Virus record (IMG/VR): IMGVR_UViG_3300025012_000163
Span: 1-44,149 of that record
Strand: one strand, 5' to 3'
DNA: 44,149 nucleotides
Origin: a virus
The notes below the pieces were generated by a model, which saw only the letters and a list, made by a program, of their open reading frames with translations, did not search any database and was not told where the DNA came from. How positions within the stretch are numbered: position 1 is the first letter of the stretch; each line of letters begins with the position of its first letter. The translations under genes were made by a program, and so were the position numbers. This document shows, piece after piece, positions 6,997-37,108 of the stretch.

Positions 6997-7075
6997 CTTG
7001 GATTTACCTATAAATTGAGTAAGTATTTAAGGATTTTATGAAATAGTAAAAAGGCTAAAAAAGTGAAAAGAGTGC

Positions 7076-7104
7076 TTGACAAGGGCGATTTTTTCTGTTA
7101 TTGT
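7076..7104 (+). promoter_or_regulatory. strong sigma70-type promoter
   Basis: TTGACA at 7076-7081 is a perfect -35 box; TATTGT at 7099-7104 is the -10 box with the ideal 17 bp spacer. Transcription would begin near 7111 and read the gene at 7213 and the structured RNAs at 7572-7934. This is the best promoter match I found in the window. The preceding stretch 6997-7075 shows no gene. Confidence 0.8.
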
Positions 7105-7110
7105 GGTCGA

Positions 7111-7212
7111 ATAATACCGGATTTTACCGGAAAGCACCAAGGGACGTAAAAAGCCGTTTTCAAGTCGGGCATGTCGCCCATTCTACAAACCCACTAATTA
7201 GGAGAATCAAAA
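7111..7212 (+). promoter_or_regulatory. structured 5' leader
   Basis: The stretch between the predicted transcription start and ATG 7213 holds no gene. It carries TACCGGA twice, 10 nt apart (7115 and 7125), so that CCGG-ATTTTA-CCGG forms a small palindrome, and a second hairpin GGGC-ATGTC-GCCC at 7167-7179. An AGGAG ribosome binding site lies shortly before the ATG. A leader of about 100 nt is long for such a short gene and may have a stability or regulatory role. Confidence 0.45.
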
Positions 7213-7575
7213 ATGAGCATGATCAAAGTAGTTAGCAACCAGGCATCTCGTGAAATCACCGTAACTGAGCCGGCAGTATTGAACCTCGGAACTATCGAAG
7301 AAATGGTACAGGCGCTCGGTGAGGATCTTACCGTGAACATGATCAAGAACCAGCTGAAGGTTTCTTTCCGCGCAGTTATTCGGCGCAAACTGGAAGAAAA
7401 AGATGACAATAACGAGTTCAGCAATACTGACGAAGCCATCACAGCTGAAGACTTCAGCGACTGGAAGCCGACTCTTCGCATTACTAAGACTCCCGAGGAG
7501 AAAGCTCTGGAAGCTCTTGGTAATCTGCCTCCGGAAGTTCGTGATGCAGTTCTGGCGCAGTTCAACAATCGGTAA
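7213..7575 (+). CDS. abundant-type small phage protein of unknown function
   Basis: 120 residues starting MSMIKVVSNQASREITV, with an acidic linker (EEKDDNNEFSNTDEAI) and FSDWKPTLR, ending in a helix (PEVRDAVLAQF). Base use is clearly more GC-rich and codons more regular than in neighbouring genes, and it has the strongest promoter in the window, so high expression is likely. I recall related short proteins in other phages as uncharacterised. Its stop codon lies in the first helix of the RNA fold that follows. A nucleic-acid-binding role is possible but not shown. Confidence 0.8.
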   Translation: MSMIKVVSNQASREITVTEPAVLNLGTIEEMVQALGEDLTVNMIKNQLKVSFRAVIRRKLEEKDDNNEFSNTDEAITAEDFSDWKPTLRITKTPEEKALEALGNLPPEVRDAVLAQFNNR

Positions 7576-7672
7576 GCTTGCCTGACAACTTGGAAAGACA
7601 AGTCGTATAGGACACGCATACGTTAAAGCGAAGTGGGGGTCGGTGGAAGCCCGACATTTCTTATTTGCTTAT
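7572..7672 (+). ncRNA. branched structured RNA element 1
   Basis: A closing helix GTAAGC (7572-7577) / GCTTAT (7667-7672) surrounds three consecutive hairpins: ACTTG/CAAGT (7588-7603, 6-nt loop), CGTAT/ATACG (7604-7622, 9-nt loop) and GTCGG/CCGAC (7639-7655, 7-nt loop). The order and stem sizes look like a cloverleaf, but the 7-nt loop TGGAAGC is not a T-loop and the closing helix is short. The first strand overlaps the stop codon of the preceding gene. It is probably part of the same transcript or is processed from it. Confidence 0.5.
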
Positions 7673-7676
7673 ATTA

Positions 7677-7822
7677 GTAGTGGTGGCGAAATAAAAAATG
7701 GTAGACGCAGCCGATTGTGTCCATAAGTAAACCTAGCCCATGTTTCTATGGCCGGACACAGAGCGAATAGTGTAATCGAGGGTAAAGGCTATTCAATTGC
7801 AGGTTCAAATCCTGCCCACTAC
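7677..7822 (+). ncRNA. tRNA-like RNA, class II type, with an expanded anticodon region
   Basis: A perfect 7-bp acceptor stem joins GTAGTGG (7677-7683) to CCACTAC (7816-7822). T and G at positions 8-9, a 3-bp D stem GCG/CGC, GG in the D loop and a perfect T arm (GCAGG, TTCAAAT, CCTGC; 7799-7815) all match tRNA rules. The D loop has an A-rich insertion (17 nt). Between D and T arms are 90 nt instead of the usual 30-45: helix TGTGTCC/GGACACA, a nested CCAT/ATGG hairpin and GAATAG/CTATTC. No normal anticodon loop can be placed and CCA is not encoded. A run TTTTT follows. Confidence 0.6.
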
Positions 7823-7831
7823 TTTTTAACT

Positions 7832-7934
7832 CTTACTGCCGGAAACGCATTGGATAGCAAGTCCATGCGCACCATTCGACCTGAATTGACAGGTATCGCC
7901 AGCATGACGATGTTGGAATCGGCTTCTTAGTAAG
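7832..7934 (+). ncRNA. branched structured RNA element 3
   Basis: The closing helix is CTTACT/AGTAAG (7832-7837, 7929-7934) stacked on GCCG/CGGC (7838-7841, 7920-7923). Inside are three hairpins: CGCA(T)TGGA/TCCATGCG (7846-7869), CGACCTG/CAGGTATCG (7877-7898, 2-nt bulge) and CCAGCAT-GACG-ATGTTGG (7899-7916). The three-armed layout is again cloverleaf-like but without tRNA sequence landmarks. It ends 23 nt before the next gene, so it could also act on that gene's translation. Confidence 0.55.
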
Positions 7935-7956
7935 ATTCAACGAGAGGATTTCTCAA

Positions 7957-8928
7957 ATGAATTTTTACGAAAAAATAGACTATAGTGCATTATTCACTTA
8001 TCAGTTATGTCCACGCAAGTTTCTCTTCCAGTATGTAATGCATCTCAAACCAGCTGGACAGTCCATCCATTTAGTCTTTGGCTCCTGTTGGCATTATGGC
8101 CTTGAGGCTGCTTACAACGAATTACTTAAAAACCCATCTCTTAATGTTATCGAAGTAACTGAAATCTCCATCAAGGCGTTTAACAAACTCTGGAAGCTCG
8201 ACGGCGAGCCTTTCTGGAAAAATGAAGATGCAATCTTCCCCAAGAGCCCAGGACATGCAGCTAATATGTATAAGGGTTATTGGGACCGCTTTCTTAAGGC
8301 TGACGTTCACGAGCGTTCAATCCTCGCTGTTGAAGCACCATTCTCAATTGATCTTTCTATCAATGGTTCGCATCTTCCCAATTATGTTGGCAGACTAGAT
8401 TTAGTATTTTCAAATGGTCGTGATAGCGTAGATGTGTTGGATCACAAAACTACGAAAGCTCTCTATGCTACGACCTCACAATCTTACGAAATGTCATATC
8501 AATCTGACGGTTACTTAACCGCTGGACGGATATATTATGATAAAATTCCAACCATTACTTATCGCATAGCTTTGTGTCAGAAATCCAAGATTGACTTCAT
8601 CCCGATTACGATTAACAAACGATCTGCATCTATTGAGCATTTTTTATCTGATCTATGTCATTATGCAACAGAGATTCAAAAGAACCTAGTTTTGCTTGAA
8701 AACGACAAGGTTACTTGTCATGATCGAACTGATACATTACAATCTTTTCATCGCAACCCTGGATATTCATGTACTTCATTTTCTTCTACCTGCCCATATT
8801 ATGATATATGCAAAATTCGGAATAATCCATTAATGTGGCTTGATAAAGCTCCTCAGGGATTTCATTTCTCTGAATGGGATCCGGAATTACACGAGGCAAA
8901 CACTAAGCAAAGGTTGGGTGAGGTGTAA
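7957..8928 (+). CDS. Cas4/RecB-like PD-(D/E)XK nuclease with Fe-S cluster
   Basis: 323 residues. C18 (QLCPRKF) at the N terminus and C272, C279 and C285 at the C terminus are placed to bind a 4Fe-4S cluster, as in Cas4 and AddB. H46 with GLE (HYGLE) and the DHK core (D162, K164 in VLDHKTTK) fit the nuclease site. Family members are metal-dependent exonucleases that resect DNA ends. Next to a Sak4-like ATPase and a DUF669 protein, a role in phage recombination or replication is likely. There is no CRISPR array in the window, so an adaptation role is not indicated. Confidence 0.9.
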   Translation: MNFYEKIDYSALFTYQLCPRKFLFQYVMHLKPAGQSIHLVFGSCWHYGLEAAYNELLKNPSLNVIEVTEISIKAFNKLWKLDGEPFWKNEDAIFPKSPGHAANMYKGYWDRFLKADVHERSILAVEAPFSIDLSINGSHLPNYVGRLDLVFSNGRDSVDVLDHKTTKALYATTSQSYEMSYQSDGYLTAGRIYYDKIPTITYRIALCQKSKIDFIPITINKRSASIEHFLSDLCHYATEIQKNLVLLENDKVTCHDRTDTLQSFHRNPGYSCTSFSSTCPYYDICKIRNNPLMWLDKAPQGFHFSEWDPELHEANTKQRLGEV

Positions 8929-11777: not shown

Positions 11778-11803
11778 TAACGGAGCTTTATGATCAAGTT
11801 TAA

Positions 11804-12104
11804 TTCGATATTAGAGTCTAGTTACCACTTTCAGTTAGCTAGGTCTGGCATTGCCGGAACAATGTCATTCTGAACGAGGCGTTGATGTGACGCCTACAAG
11901 ATATCGGAATAAATAAAACTTGCTGTTCACTTATGAACGAACTGTTGAATGGTTCGCAAGTAAGTGAACAGCAACTTACAATTGAATGTATGAATCTAAT
12001 AATCCACATAGATCTGGCCTATGGTTAGGATTATACCTAAAGTAGCATTTGTGTAATGCTATAGCTCGTAGTTACCAGACATAAGATACTGGACTCAGAG
12101 CTAA
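11804..12104 (+). ncRNA. structured non-coding RNA, dense hairpin array
   Basis: About 300 nt without a convincing gene. A bulged closing helix near 11804-11811 / 11901-11909 holds GGCATTG/CAATGTC (11847-11866) and AGGCGT/ACGCCT (11877-11895). Then come a perfect 13-bp stem TTGCTGTTCACTT/AAGTGAACAGCAA (11920-11974) with an inner CGAAC/GTTCG, ATAATCC/GGATTAT enclosing CATAG/CTATG (11999-12034), TAGCATT/AATGCTA (12043-12061) and TAGCTC/GAGCTA enclosing CCAG/CTGG (12062-12103). TAGTTACCA occurs in both the first and last parts (11819, 12069). It ends at a terminator, so it is probably the 3' part of the SSB transcript or a processed RNA. Confidence 0.65.
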
Positions 12105-12106
12105 GA

Positions 12107-12150
12107 ACATGAGAGGTATAATACCAATGCCTCTCATGTCTTGTTTTTAT
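12107..12150 (+). terminator. rho-independent terminator
   Basis: ACATGAGAGG (12107-12116) pairs perfectly with CCTCTCATGT (12130-12139) over 10 bp, followed by CTTGTTTTTATTTAT. It closes the transcript that carries the SSB-like gene and the hairpin array. Confidence 0.85.
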
Positions 12151-12175
12151 TTATCTTACTAAATAAATATTACTA

Positions 12176-33996: not shown

Positions 33997-35291
33997 TAGA
34001 CACTCCCGTACTGGATCTCGCCAGTCCTAAAAATAGCAGATGTTACCTTATCACCTGCTGTATATAGATAGCCGTAAGCATAAAGAGGAAGCAACCGAGA
34101 TGCAGTTGGAACGGTGCTAGTGTGAACGACAGAATCCGCGTCGGTCTTTGCCATGTAGACAATCATATTGTCAGGTTGCCGATAGATCCTGATCTCCGTT
34201 AGTTCGGTCTGCACAGAGAACATGGTCTTTACCATCGCCCCGTTTTCATATACTCTCACTCCGTTCTGGTCACAGATGATTCCGTGCGAGAACCTCGCCA
34301 CTCCTGCACCCTCCATCCCTTTGCTGGCGATACTGATACAAGCACTCGTCACCCCGGACGCTGCTGTGAATTTGATGAACGTACCTACCGCAAGAGGATT
34401 GATCGATCTCGCCCAAGTATTCCAACCACTGTTAGTCAGTTGCAGTAGTTCCTGATAGGTAAGCGGATCGTCTGCACTGTTGGTCGCCTCTTGCGCCGGC
34501 ATAGTGGTCTCGACAGTATACGTCGAAGTTGGGACGGTCTGATCCCTGATATACGGAACGCCATCATTGAACGTCCCAGAGTAGACATCCGTAAATGAAG
34601 TATCATACCCATCAACCATTTCAATATCAAATAGTTCCCCCCACGATTCTCCATCCTTACCCTCTTGATAAATCCACTTTGTCCTATCTTCTTGAAGTAT
34701 TCCGTCTATTATAGCATCATAATTCTTCTGATTGAATCCAGTAGAGTCTTCTGAAAGAGTTTGTGTGGGTTTAGAATATTCATATTCTACAAAGTGGTAC
34801 AGCCCATATCCCACGAACCCCACCCAGAACGCGAGGTAACTGCCATCTGGATACGAATATATAGGCACCCCCAATTGACTCTTGCCCTGATACCAGACAA
34901 TTTTATGGTGGTTGACCCTCGCCTGCATATCAGTGACCGTACCATCCCAATCACTCGGATATAAGGATCGCATCATGTCATTTTCCTGCGCCGTTGTGGC
35001 GAGATAGATGCCTTTCTTTCCTGTCCTCTCTCCGTCAGGTGGAGCATCTCCAATAAACCCGTCAGGGTAGAAAATCCCTCTATCCGTCATGGTATAGCCA
35101 GTCACCAGTCCACCAGTTTCATCTATCCACTGGCCATTAGCCAGTTGAGTCCAGCCATCAGGGATATAGTAATAGGTCAAGGTGGACTGTCCAGATGTGC
35201 CGGTATTCGTGGAGGTATACCCTTCAGTTCCAGCCGTACCACCGTAACGAGTAATAAGTTCATACTTATAATCCTTTATCAATATGCTCAT
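33996..35291 (-). CDS. tail-region structural protein, 431 aa
   Basis: A beta-rich protein dominated by Gly, Tyr, Thr and Asp. The first 200 residues have several Trp-Tyr-Gly patches (YYIPDGWTQLANGQWIDETG, FWVGFVGYGLYHF). The C-terminal third (NTWARSINPLAVGTFIKFTAASGVTS ... GVRVYENGAM) looks like a jelly-roll or lectin-like domain. Base composition is more GC-rich than in neighbours. The place in the appendage cluster suggests a tail fibre or receptor-binding role, not proven. Confidence 0.6.
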   Translation of the reverse strand: MSILIKDYKYELITRYGGTAGTEGYTSTNTGTSGQSTLTYYYIPDGWTQLANGQWIDETGGLVTGYTMTDRGIFYPDGFIGDAPPDGERTGKKGIYLATTAQENDMMRSLYPSDWDGTVTDMQARVNHHKIVWYQGKSQLGVPIYSYPDGSYLAFWVGFVGYGLYHFVEYEYSKPTQTLSEDSTGFNQKNYDAIIDGILQEDRTKWIYQEGKDGESWGELFDIEMVDGYDTSFTDVYSGTFNDGVPYIRDQTVPTSTYTVETTMPAQEATNSADDPLTYQELLQLTNSGWNTWARSINPLAVGTFIKFTAASGVTSACISIASKGMEGAGVARFSHGIICDQNGVRVYENGAMVKTMFSVQTELTEIRIYRQPDNMIVYMAKTDADSVVHTSTVPTASRLLPLYAYGYLYTAGDKVTSAIFRTGEIQYGSV

Positions 35292-37108
35292 GGCATTCCT
35301 ATTGCGTATTTATCATAAGGCCCAACCGGACTTTGTGGGACAATTGGAGGACACTGATAAGCAGCGAGAGCATCTGCTCTTGAATCGTCACCGTAAAGTC
35401 CAATAGCAAAGTTGTCAGCGGATCCAACTGAGAATGGTAGTTCACCCATCACCTGCCACAAATCTGTGCTTTCTGCTTCCTCATCAGTTGCTGCTGTCCA
35501 ATTTAGTGAAGCAAATGCGTACTTCTCAATTGCATCAACGGTGTGCTTAACTACTCCGATTAAGAATATCCTCTCAGGCGTGACTATGCAAGGACGGACA
35601 CTGATAAGTTCTACTCCTTCAGGGCATCCAGGTAACTGAGTCCATCCTATAAAAGGTGAACCGTAATGAACGGATTTAATCCGCCCCCTGACTTTATTAC
35701 AGACACACAAGTATAACGGAACCGTTTCAAATGTCCCTGCGTAGGTGATATCAGGGCGTACTCCAGTTTCATCTACTAATGGAGTTGCTGTAATATTCGC
35801 ATAAAGAATATCAGTAGGGACAGAAAGACTTACTGTAAACAATCCTGTCGGAGTAAACTTAACCGATCCATACTTTCGTGTCCAGGTATATATATTTCCA
35901 TCATGTGCATGGAACATTACCGAGTCATAAGGAACTGTAAAATTAACATTCGGATATGCACCAGCAACTTGTTCAAACATCCTTTTTGCATCGAACCAGC
36001 TAGCTGTAAGATCAAGCGTTGTTAAACTGTCAAGTGTTGCAAGAAATTGATTTGAATTTACCAGATGTACATTGTTTCCAACTGTCATTGAGTAAAATAG
36101 CCTCCACTTCTCGTCTTCTGTATGAACTCCATAATACTCAGATGCCTCGCAGGTTTCCGCCCCAGATGAGAAAACATGGCATGATGCATTCACAGCATGA
36201 AAAAATGTTCCTTCAAAAGCATACGATCCAAGCGGTTCACATGAACCATCATTCTCTGAAGTGCTGAGTATAATTCTCAAATCTTCAGGCATTAATGTAT
36301 TAAGGATTTCACTAAAATAAATATTGTCTGCTGTTCCAGTAAGGACATCGAAGTTAAACCCCACTGTTTTTACAGGAGGACTTCCAACAAAATCGTATAA
36401 CCATGTACTGTGAAAAGAAGTGTATCTGTCTTCCCCAGTCTTTTGATAAATCCTCCAAGGTGTATAAGAGTTTTCATATTCAATATGCTTGGCAATGCAA
36501 TTCATCCGGCTTGCCTGACTACCATTAGCAATGTAGAATGAAGTGTTTTTTTCAAAAACTTGTCGCCACCAATCAAACGTCCCATCTCCTGCAAGATCAT
36601 ACTTCATCGAATCAGAGACAATTACGTTGAACAACTCGCCATGGAACGGAAGAAGCACCGGCCTGCAGGAGTAGTCTTCGGTCCACACAGTATCAGGTCC
36701 CTCAGTATCTCCGTCTATGAGTCCATACGGAGATAGACTTACCGCAGGCAAGAATTTAACTGGATAATACCCTGTAGATGGACCAATGGAGCCGTTGAAG
36801 AATGTCGTAAAATCACCAGCAATCCCCAGATCTTTGAACATCACATATAGGTCCTGTGCAGGATTGAATCCACTTGCCCAATAATCAGCTACGGCTATCT
36901 TGATACCATCCTGTGTCGAGCAGGCCACTACTGCTCCCATCGGGGCAGTCACTCTCCCGCCGTCGATGTCTCCGAGTTGCCATACCTTAAATCTGAACCC
37001 ATCCCATACCGGACAGGCTGAAGGAATATCCATCTCCTTGATCTGAGCAAGCTTCTTCTTGGCGAACCATCTGCGCTTCAGGCTGCGATCACCATCAAAG
37101 GTAATCAT
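35288..37108 (-). CDS. tail-region structural protein, 606 aa
   Basis: A large beta-rich protein with ATGA overlaps at both ends. The N terminus is basic (SLKRRWFAKKKLAQIKEM), followed by GGRVTAPMGAVVACSTQDGIKIAVADYW and many short strands. Repeated Y..F....T.D.I and W....G patterns fit a fibre or appendage protein. No enzyme motif was found. Its function is inferred from position. Confidence 0.6.
   Translation of the reverse strand: MITFDGDRSLKRRWFAKKKLAQIKEMDIPSACPVWDGFRFKVWQLGDIDGGRVTAPMGAVVACSTQDGIKIAVADYWASGFNPAQDLYVMFKDLGIAGDFTTFFNGSIGPSTGYYPVKFLPAVSLSPYGLIDGDTEGPDTVWTEDYSCRPVLLPFHGELFNVIVSDSMKYDLAGDGTFDWWRQVFEKNTSFYIANGSQASRMNCIAKHIEYENSYTPWRIYQKTGEDRYTSFHSTWLYDFVGSPPVKTVGFNFDVLTGTADNIYFSEILNTLMPEDLRIILSTSENDGSCEPLGSYAFEGTFFHAVNASCHVFSSGAETCEASEYYGVHTEDEKWRLFYSMTVGNNVHLVNSNQFLATLDSLTTLDLTASWFDAKRMFEQVAGAYPNVNFTVPYDSVMFHAHDGNIYTWTRKYGSVKFTPTGLFTVSLSVPTDILYANITATPLVDETGVRPDITYAGTFETVPLYLCVCNKVRGRIKSVHYGSPFIGWTQLPGCPEGVELISVRPCIVTPERIFLIGVVKHTVDAIEKYAFASLNWTAATDEEAESTDLWQVMGELPFSVGSADNFAIGLYGDDSRADALAAYQCPPIVPQSPVGPYDKYAIGMP

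Follow-up and report, generated by a model that had tools for sequence, protein, structure and literature searches.

The window analyzed here, a stretch of 44,149 nucleotides of viral DNA taken at its full length, contains a gap of 381 nt between a gene for a 120-aa protein and a PD-(D/E)XK nuclease gene that run in the same direction, and this gap holds three separate structured RNAs, herein termed M1, M2, and M3. The best-covered polymerase relative is from a Desulfofustis phage (30.9% identity), and a 606-aa protein of the window (35291-37108) has no match in phages. The features of the locus are as follows.

7076-7104, + strand: sigma-70-like promoter, TTGACA, spacing of 17, TATTGT, with TG before the second hexamer; a consensus match only (10/12)
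7213-7575, + strand: 120-aa gene, the kept neighbor upstream of the RNA locus; unmatched in PHROG and Pfam at E 0.001
7588-7603, + strand: optional hairpin directly before M1, ACTTG...CAAGT (sequences by eye)
7604-7655, + strand: M1, pseudoknotted RNA, 52 nt; covariation in 38 distinct sequences, match to covariance model R1 in the window at E 8.6e-21
7604-7608 with 7618-7622, + strand: M1 stem 1, 5 bp
7613-7615 with 7633-7635, + strand: M1 pseudoknot, 3 bp
7639-7643 with 7651-7655, + strand: M1 stem 2, 5 bp, with the 7-nt T-loop-like loop UGGAANC
7677-7822, + strand: M2, tRNA-like RNA, 146 nt; elbow and arm comparison, with pairing counted over 11 aligned rows of related units
7677-7683 with 7816-7822, + strand: M2 acceptor, 7 bp, tRNA-like pairing
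7686-7688 with 7706-7708, + strand: M2 D-stem, 3 bp, GG in the loop, tRNA-like pairing
7709-7798, + strand: M2 variable insert replacing the anticodon arm, 90 nt, from comparison with relatives
7799-7815, + strand: M2 T-arm, GCAGG-TTCAAAT-CCTGC, a tRNA-like arm
7837-7923, + strand: M3, four-helix RNA, 87 nt, with a GCCG/CGGC closing helix, three arms, and a conserved GACG tetraloop; 7 distinct sequences
7957-8928, + strand: PD-(D/E)XK nuclease gene, the kept neighbor downstream; Pfam PF12705 at E 2.2e-15, PHROG exonuclease

The promoter that a sequence-only reading of this region had placed at 7076 is present, and the number of promoter-like sites between 6900 and 8100 (3, versus 1.9 expected) is at the chance level; it is the only such site on the + strand. 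The same interval has one terminator-like site, which is hairpin 2 of M1, and no strong terminator was seen between the 7076 promoter and the nuclease gene. The AlphaFold model of the 120-aa protein is poor (mean pLDDT 44.7), too poor for a structure search. A 60-aa open reading frame at 7748-7930 overlaps M2 and M3, but M2 is exchanged in relatives and the lengths of M3 (87, 88, 81, and 120 nt) do not fit a single frame.

The 363-nt stretch that spans the modules folds with an energy below that of 100 of 100 dinucleotide shuffles (z -2.39), which is a modest signal, and hence the case for structured RNA rests on comparison. Throughout the window ARAGORN finds neither a tRNA nor a tmRNA, and no Rfam 15 family matches at its gathering score; permissive thresholds applied to 7000-8000 gave four weak matches, none of them meaningful. 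The Rfam covariance models for GOLLD and ROOL are unmatched in the whole window and also in 14 related or M1-bearing loci. Taken with the comparisons below, there is very little doubt that the region 7572-7934 is a structured RNA locus, and it is made up of three independent modules rather than one ornate RNA.

Structure and distribution of M1

The sequence-only reading had drawn three successive multi-arm folds, each closed by its own helix. This holds for M2 and M3 but not for the left-hand fold, where the conserved core, M1, has two hairpins of 5 bp each, a pseudoknot of 3 bp, and no conserved closing helix. Among 38 distinct 52-nt cores from the loci examined, the window's own type included, 98.8% of 494 cells are paired and 8 of the 13 pairs show changes on both sides, with a covariation score of 0.445, as compared with 0.141 for shuffles and no more than 0.099 when partners are slid. 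Counts of further pair types separate less clearly (17 versus 14.6, reached by 47/500 shuffles). The folding energy of the 52-nt core is at the chance level (z 0.14), and the structure is thus supported by covariation and not by energy. Wobble pairs in M1 are G-U on the + strand, in agreement with a + strand transcript. By the measure of covariation M1 appears to be an RNA family of its own, and no Rfam family matches it.

The loops and the junction are nearly constant ([A/U]GGACWCGC, UUAAAGNGAAGWGG, and UGGAANC on a 5-bp stem), and this constancy is partly by construction, since the search patterns prescribed most of loop 1 and the junction as well as two pseudoknot pairs. The remaining pseudoknot pair, in the middle, was the only one free to covary, and it is A-U in 34 sequences and U-A in 4, the latter being the helicase-gap group (L100, L103, and L113) and L133; one other pseudoknot pair is broken in the L065 type. 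The UGGAANC hairpin matches a tRNA T-arm in size, and a T-loop might form in it. In L050/L177 the optional hairpin before M1 reads ACCTG...CAGGT, one pair being altered on both sides (by eye). Among the open-licence papers listed in literature searches, no title or abstract opening names M1 or M2, and the matches listed in an exact-word search contain GGACACGC only and have unrelated titles.

The sequences point to M1 as a widespread RNA that matches no catalogued family and occurs in many unrelated phages. Three patterns located 72, 84, and 113 stretches in viral contigs, the last set being listed in part, and GenBank phages gave 49 records, 47 of Pseudomonas phages and 2 of Salmonella phage 9NA, some phages being entered twice; by BLAST of phage records a 47-nt M1 match is found in 34 Pseudomonas phage records. 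Of 41 chosen sources, model R1 matches 29 at E < 1e-4, in a search mostly of the loci that supplied the model's own sequences; beyond these it matched L178, which has a changed junction letter, and, as the weakest, 9NA (E 6.6e-5), where loop 1 differs. In the window's own record M1 occurs once. A first scan of one genome per species (84,980 species) gave no chromosomal M1, and a second (84,980 species) gave seven stretches that all lack the GGACNCGC loop of hairpin 1, so none was counted. There was no match in E. coli genomes, and six records of a plasmid collection matched, five from P. aeruginosa and a weak one from Persicobacter.

A same-strand tRNA lies within 1.5 kb of M1 in 39 of 92 distinct neighborhoods, and these counts are lower bounds as some loci end near M1. 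They divide into 36 of the 56 neighborhoods of the Pseudomonas type, none of the 4 in the window's group, and 3 of the 32 others (L120, L153, and L154), with L101, counted among the others, being a one-letter variant of the Pseudomonas-type M1. In L120, L153, and L154 M1 has a tRNA-like placement between two tRNA-Leu genes, which in L120 are separated from it by gaps of 5 and 9 nt. In phage D3 it lies under a predicted small ORF, orf86, upstream of tRNA-Gly, Asn, and Thr, and in most of the listed records the site has no annotated feature. Elsewhere M1 precedes a gene for an SNF2-type helicase (L118) or a head-tail adaptor (L145), follows the capsid and gp41 genes (9NA) or a gene annotated as antitermination Q (Pseudomonas phage Ab31), or is closely followed by a GC-rich hairpin with a T-run (L064, L074, L089, and L098). 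It stands just after an SOS-box-like region in L125, L129, L130, L139, and L144, and in L130 before a gene with a LexA DNA-binding domain. For the helicase group, an HNH identity of the small gene that precedes M1, suggested by eye, was dropped, since the gene is unmatched in Pfam and its PHROG matches are all to families of unknown function.

Several other elements were seen around M1. In the five loci with the SOS-box-like region, GTTTAAAC stands directly before M1 on one or both sides of GCGAACGTTC, an arrangement that resembles a LexA-type operator. L140 has, at ~1060-1130 after M1, a tRNA-like unit, GGGGATT...GTGGGTTCGATCCCCAC...AGTCCTC, that ARAGORN does not call (by eye). A unit GGAGTGA...TCACTCC with a middle that varies between phages follows M1 in L023 (phage D3, ~980-1260), L022, and L024 (by eye), and behind it D3-like phages have a further fold, neither being annotated as RNA in the records examined. 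The three annotated tRNAs of L022 (OR683406.1, phage Marin) lie ~345-351 bases upstream of the ARAGORN positions.

M2 and its inserts

The middle fold had been credited with tRNA landmarks, and M2 does fold as a closed cloverleaf that contains them, namely a 7-bp acceptor, the TG linker, a D-arm with GG, and a T-arm with a 7-nt loop, with 90 nt at the place where the anticodon and variable arms are expected. There is no 5-bp anticodon stem with a 7-nt anticodon loop in M2, ARAGORN makes no tRNA call here, and M2 is not above the gathering score of the Rfam tRNA model RF00005. We term it tRNA-like and not a tRNA as it fails two defining tests, the anticodon arm and the Rfam score, and agrees with tRNA in the other features compared. 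The related M2 units examined are likewise uncalled by ARAGORN, except for one in L206 with a 17-nt anticodon loop that is reported as tRNA-???. The closest true tRNA is the tRNA-Leu of L017 (L017:12083-12170), which is similar in its acceptor geometry, TG linker, D-arm GGCGGAATAGGTAGACGC, and form of the T-arm, but the M2 units have an insert of 36-153 nt rather than 34 nt, no recognized anticodon arm, and no CCA. With tmRNA, M2 shares tRNA-like ends around an insert that is not tRNA, but ARAGORN finds no tmRNA in the window or in the related loci examined.

A scan for the elbow in the window and related loci gave 13 distinct units, which are the true tRNA-Leu with its CCA and 12 tRNA-likes, whose inserts span 45-153 nt and whose acceptors are not followed by CCA. 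Four more with slightly irregular arms (L162, L165, L173, and L186) and two more from whole records (L209 and L216) bring the tRNA-likes to 18. Aligned in 11 rows, which take in the one true tRNA-Leu, the three stems pair in 94.5% of 165 cells and 12 of the 15 pairs show changes on both sides. Their covariation score, 0.678, exceeds those for shuffles (0.206) and slid partners (at most 0.153). Eight of the nine unpaired cells come from the rows of L162 and L165, where the acceptor register is one base off, and the form common to L163, L169, L176, and L185, as well as L186 (8-nt T-loop), L209, and L216, were left out of the alignment. The D-stem is found as GCG/CGC, ACG/CGT, GTG/CAC, and GCA/TGC.

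The energy of M2 is unremarkable (z -1.38, with 20/200 shuffles as low), and given that the range over the units is z -0.55 to -3.90, several of them are no better than shuffles; for 11 of the 13 units, one of them the true tRNA, the minimum-energy fold contains the complete acceptor and T-stem. Beyond its 7 bp the acceptor helix continues for 1-4 further pairs in 16 of the 18 tRNA-likes, with L162 and L165 counted in the shifted register, and also in the true tRNA-Leu, and the extension is likely to be partly due to chance given the A/T-rich flanks. A hairpin insertion in the D-loop recurs in L176, L182, L183, and L187 (by eye).

The inserts differ where their surroundings do not. In L001, L002, L006, and L012 the 120-aa proteins differ by one residue and M3 is identical, and relatives with such near-identical neighbors have different M2 inserts. 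Compared by BLAST, the inserts of L169 and L187 share 17/18 letters and L183 resembles a cut-off L176 unit; nothing else in common was found between inserts. Two M2-type units per genome are present in L012, L018, G012, and G015. At the first locus of L018 an insert stands behind the acceptor TGGTGAG/CTCACCA, and the same insert with its T-arm, 72 consecutive letters, recurs behind TAGGCTG/CAGCCTA at the second locus of L012, 1.6 kb from the first; the second locus of L018 has a different insert of 104 nt. An identical insert behind two acceptors shows, in this one case, that the acceptors stay with the locus and that the insert moved. The window's own insert was not found behind another acceptor, the seven contigs that have its first 25 letters holding it whole, and an insert suspected from equal length to be common to L003 and L013 was discarded as the sequences differ. 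Short-word BLAST of 13 inserts against both strands of the window and loci for antisense targets gave the inserts' own copies and otherwise nothing beyond 13-18-nt matches with E >= 0.07.

Two further observations concern tRNA-like sequences. At L004:5722-5889, and also in L005, L021, L038, L040, L173-L175, and L207 (three contigs), there is a circularly permuted tRNA in the order T-arm, acceptor 3' strand, and TCCA, then a long hairpin, and then the acceptor 5' strand, D-arm, and half of an anticodon stem, with the outer ends paired together. Its minimum free energy in L004 is -49.3 kcal/mol versus -25.9 (sd 3.4) for 200 simple shuffles, the fold being this cloverleaf, and we take the element to resemble two-piece tmRNA genes. 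The second long gap of the window, 11790-12160, has several hairpins, and its pieces ACTTGCTGTTCA...GTTCGCAAGT or similar recur in L209 and L216 and another recurs in L009, beside further tRNA-like units with the acceptor AAGCTGG or TAGTATG (all by eye).

M3 and the gap across relatives

The right-hand fold is also retained, as the four helices of M3, with z -2.95 for the 87-nt core (2/200 shuffles as low). In its 7 distinct sequences 95.5% of 179 cells pair and 7 of the 26 pairs show changes on both sides, five of these in the arm with the GACG loop. The covariation score is 0.262 versus 0.145 for shuffles and at most 0.101 for slid partners, further pair types are not above shuffles (11 versus 11.9), and RNAalifold gives nearly the same helices. 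Parts of the second helix are broken in L186 and L193, and the outer CTTACT/AGTAAG helix of the window is absent in the relatives examined (by eye). M3 seems to be confined to this phage group, since all 24 contigs found with a wider pattern also matched the nuclease or 120-aa query; there is no match in GenBank phages. Compensatory changes, which the sequence-only reading had named as the check on its non-coding structured locus, are therefore present in the homologues of M1, M2, and M3 and point to selection that maintains the pairing. They support that locus, and the refuting outcome that the reading had foreseen, their absence, did not occur.

The 120-aa gene is present in 36 loci, which have 29 distinct sequences behind the gene, near-duplicates (L159/L160 and L171/L172) included. 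M1 is in 4 of these, M2 in 15, M3 in 16, and at least one module in 20. Among the nine without a module, L183 is cut off inside M2, L184 has another tRNA-arm-like structured unit (by eye), and L180, L188-L192, and L194 each form a stem of 13-17 bp within 150 nt of the start of the gap, directly followed in L180 and L190 by a T-run in the manner of a terminator. The gap after the 120-aa gene thus seems always to hold a folded element, the frequency of stems being counted in this gap only, and stems of 13-14 bp are also found in the module-bearing gaps of L162, L165, L187, and L193. The modules occur in various combinations, with M1 and M3 but no M2 in L177 and L178, M3 alone in L170 and L179, M2 without M1 and M3 in L181, L182, L185, and L187, and M1 without M3 in Pseudomonas phages and most environmental phages.

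Other folds were seen by eye behind the 120-aa gene. L182 and L177 have an RNA unit TGTCCGAGAAAACTATCGGCAAT...GTGAAAGTAGCCGAG, and L181 and L182 an H-type pseudoknot, CCGA(AGCTACAA)TCGG...TTTGTAGC, of which L193 has a CCTA/TAGG version. In L184 and L186 a short unit after the 120-aa gene or M3 has two T-arm-like hairpins, GCAG-TTCGAGT-CTGC and AAAGG-TTCGAGT-CCTTG or similar, and no D-arm was seen.

A possible processing boundary and its alternatives

We tentatively propose that M1, M2, and M3 are a processing and stability boundary between the messages of the 120-aa gene and the nuclease gene, with M2 being cut by enzymes that act on tRNA ends. As there is no other + strand promoter-like site and no strong terminator was seen in between, one transcript from the 7076 promoter would run through the 120-aa gene, M1, M2, M3, and the nuclease gene. 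Mitochondrial tRNA punctuation is a precedent for tRNA shapes as cutting signals. RNase P and RNase Z possibly do not need an anticodon arm, in which case the anticodon region would be free for other sequence. Both enzymes read the tRNA elbow, RNase Z acts on pre-tRNAs without CCA, and tRNA-mimicking RNAs recruit RNase P, all according to PMC4810234. Since the elbow and acceptor are what they read, host RNase P and RNase Z would be expected to cut at M2, thereby freeing the upstream mRNA, capped by M1 at its 3' end, and the downstream mRNA, capped by M3 at its 5' end, and M2, insert included, would be released as a stable tRNA-shaped RNA. M2 would differ from mitochondrial punctuation and the mimics in its phage setting and replaced anticodon domain, its cleavage being a prediction. 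Where M1 is flanked on both sides by a tRNA-Leu gene (L120, L153, and L154), tRNA cutting alone would free it.

The boundary is chosen mainly because the gap seems always to hold a folded element, and it is consistent with the covariation of each module being well above that of the slid controls and with the lack of CCA after the acceptor in M2 units when the true tRNA-Leu of L017 has one. Several findings count against it. The acceptor extension leaves position 73 paired, which is an unusual substrate for tRNA 3' maturation, and an identical insert at two loci is more than a signal for processing alone would require; we expect some inserts to have a function of their own, one being preserved unchanged at both loci. 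Four M3-bearing relatives lack M2 (L170, L177, L178, and L179) and four M2-bearing relatives lack M3 (L181, L182, L185, and L187), M1 also occurs away from tRNAs and tRNA-likes, as before the SNF2-type helicase gene and in 9NA, and the stems of 13-14 bp are not limited to gaps that lack modules.

There is also a wider reading, which we regard as possible, short of probable, in which phages carry tRNA-shaped cassettes with a fixed, locus-specific acceptor and elbow and an exchangeable insert that replaces the anticodon arm and reassorts between loci and phages, one lineage having the permuted tRNA. The tRNA shape would then serve as a vehicle for delivery and maturation, and M1 would be a widespread pseudoknot RNA, so far without a name, that accompanies phage tRNA arrays and occurs elsewhere as well.

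For M1, an alternative that we consider doubtful is that it acts in cis on RNA polymerase like the put RNA of phage HK022, so that polymerase is carried through the untranslated, structured, or terminator-bearing M2 and M3. M1 is likewise a short, compact two-hairpin element in phage operons, and its positions after the antitermination Q gene of Ab31, just after the SOS-box-like region in five loci, and closely before the GC-rich hairpins with T-runs in four others would suit such a role. According to PMC9378689, putRNA is ~70 nt with two stem-loops and acts on Rho-dependent and intrinsic terminators, and putR lies ~270 nt from its promoter. M1, however, has a pseudoknot with one freely covarying pair, a word absent from PMC9378689, as well as the UUAAAGNGAAG junction; in L120 and L153 it is in the middle of a tRNA array and not at its start, and the likeness is one of description.

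That M2 is a tRNA decoy, occupying a host defense protein that binds or cuts tRNA, with inserts that diverge in an arms race, is unlikely. Such a decoy would explain why the anticodon domain varies by phage type among near-identical neighbors, why some genomes have two units and one insert is at two loci, and why compensatory changes preserve the D-stem, T-stem, and acceptor. Yet no canonical anticodon arm is recognized that an anticodon nuclease could use, with the exception of a possible 7-nt loop TTTATAA on a short stem in L165 (by eye), the acceptor helix is longer than that of a usual tRNA, and no defense system was identified. Still less is to be expected of the inserts as antisense or guide RNAs on a tRNA scaffold. 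The one insert on two acceptors does resemble exchangeable cargo, but the search for targets in the window and loci yielded only the short matches given above. We regard it as highly improbable that the units are relics, decayed tRNA-Leu genes and leftover terminators without RNA function, in spite of the resemblance of D- and T-arm letters to the true tRNA-Leu of a relative and of the energies of some M2 units, because decay would not yield changes on both sides in 12 of 15 pairs of the acceptor, D-stem, and T-stem, and M1 and M3 covary too, so that the pair counts contradict it. That the locus is one large, ornate RNA like GOLLD or ROOL, which the sequence-only reading had cited as precedents, has next to no probability left, since for all the likeness in surroundings (phage and tRNA-like genes) the modules of 52, 146, and 87 nt occur independently and no Rfam model matches the window, whereas GOLLD and ROOL are described in PMC12286853 as structured RNAs of phages that often lie close to tRNA islands and have no known function, with many GOLLD members exceeding 800 nt.

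Both tRNA mimics and structured RNAs near the tRNAs of phages belong to known kinds. To our knowledge, the combination of modules with exchangeable inserts has no precedent. As M1 is present in the classic phage D3, it is open to immediate testing in a laboratory phage. M2 suggests that a tRNA may retain its shell and yet have its decoding part swapped, and this bears on the purpose of the tRNA and tRNA-like genes of phages.
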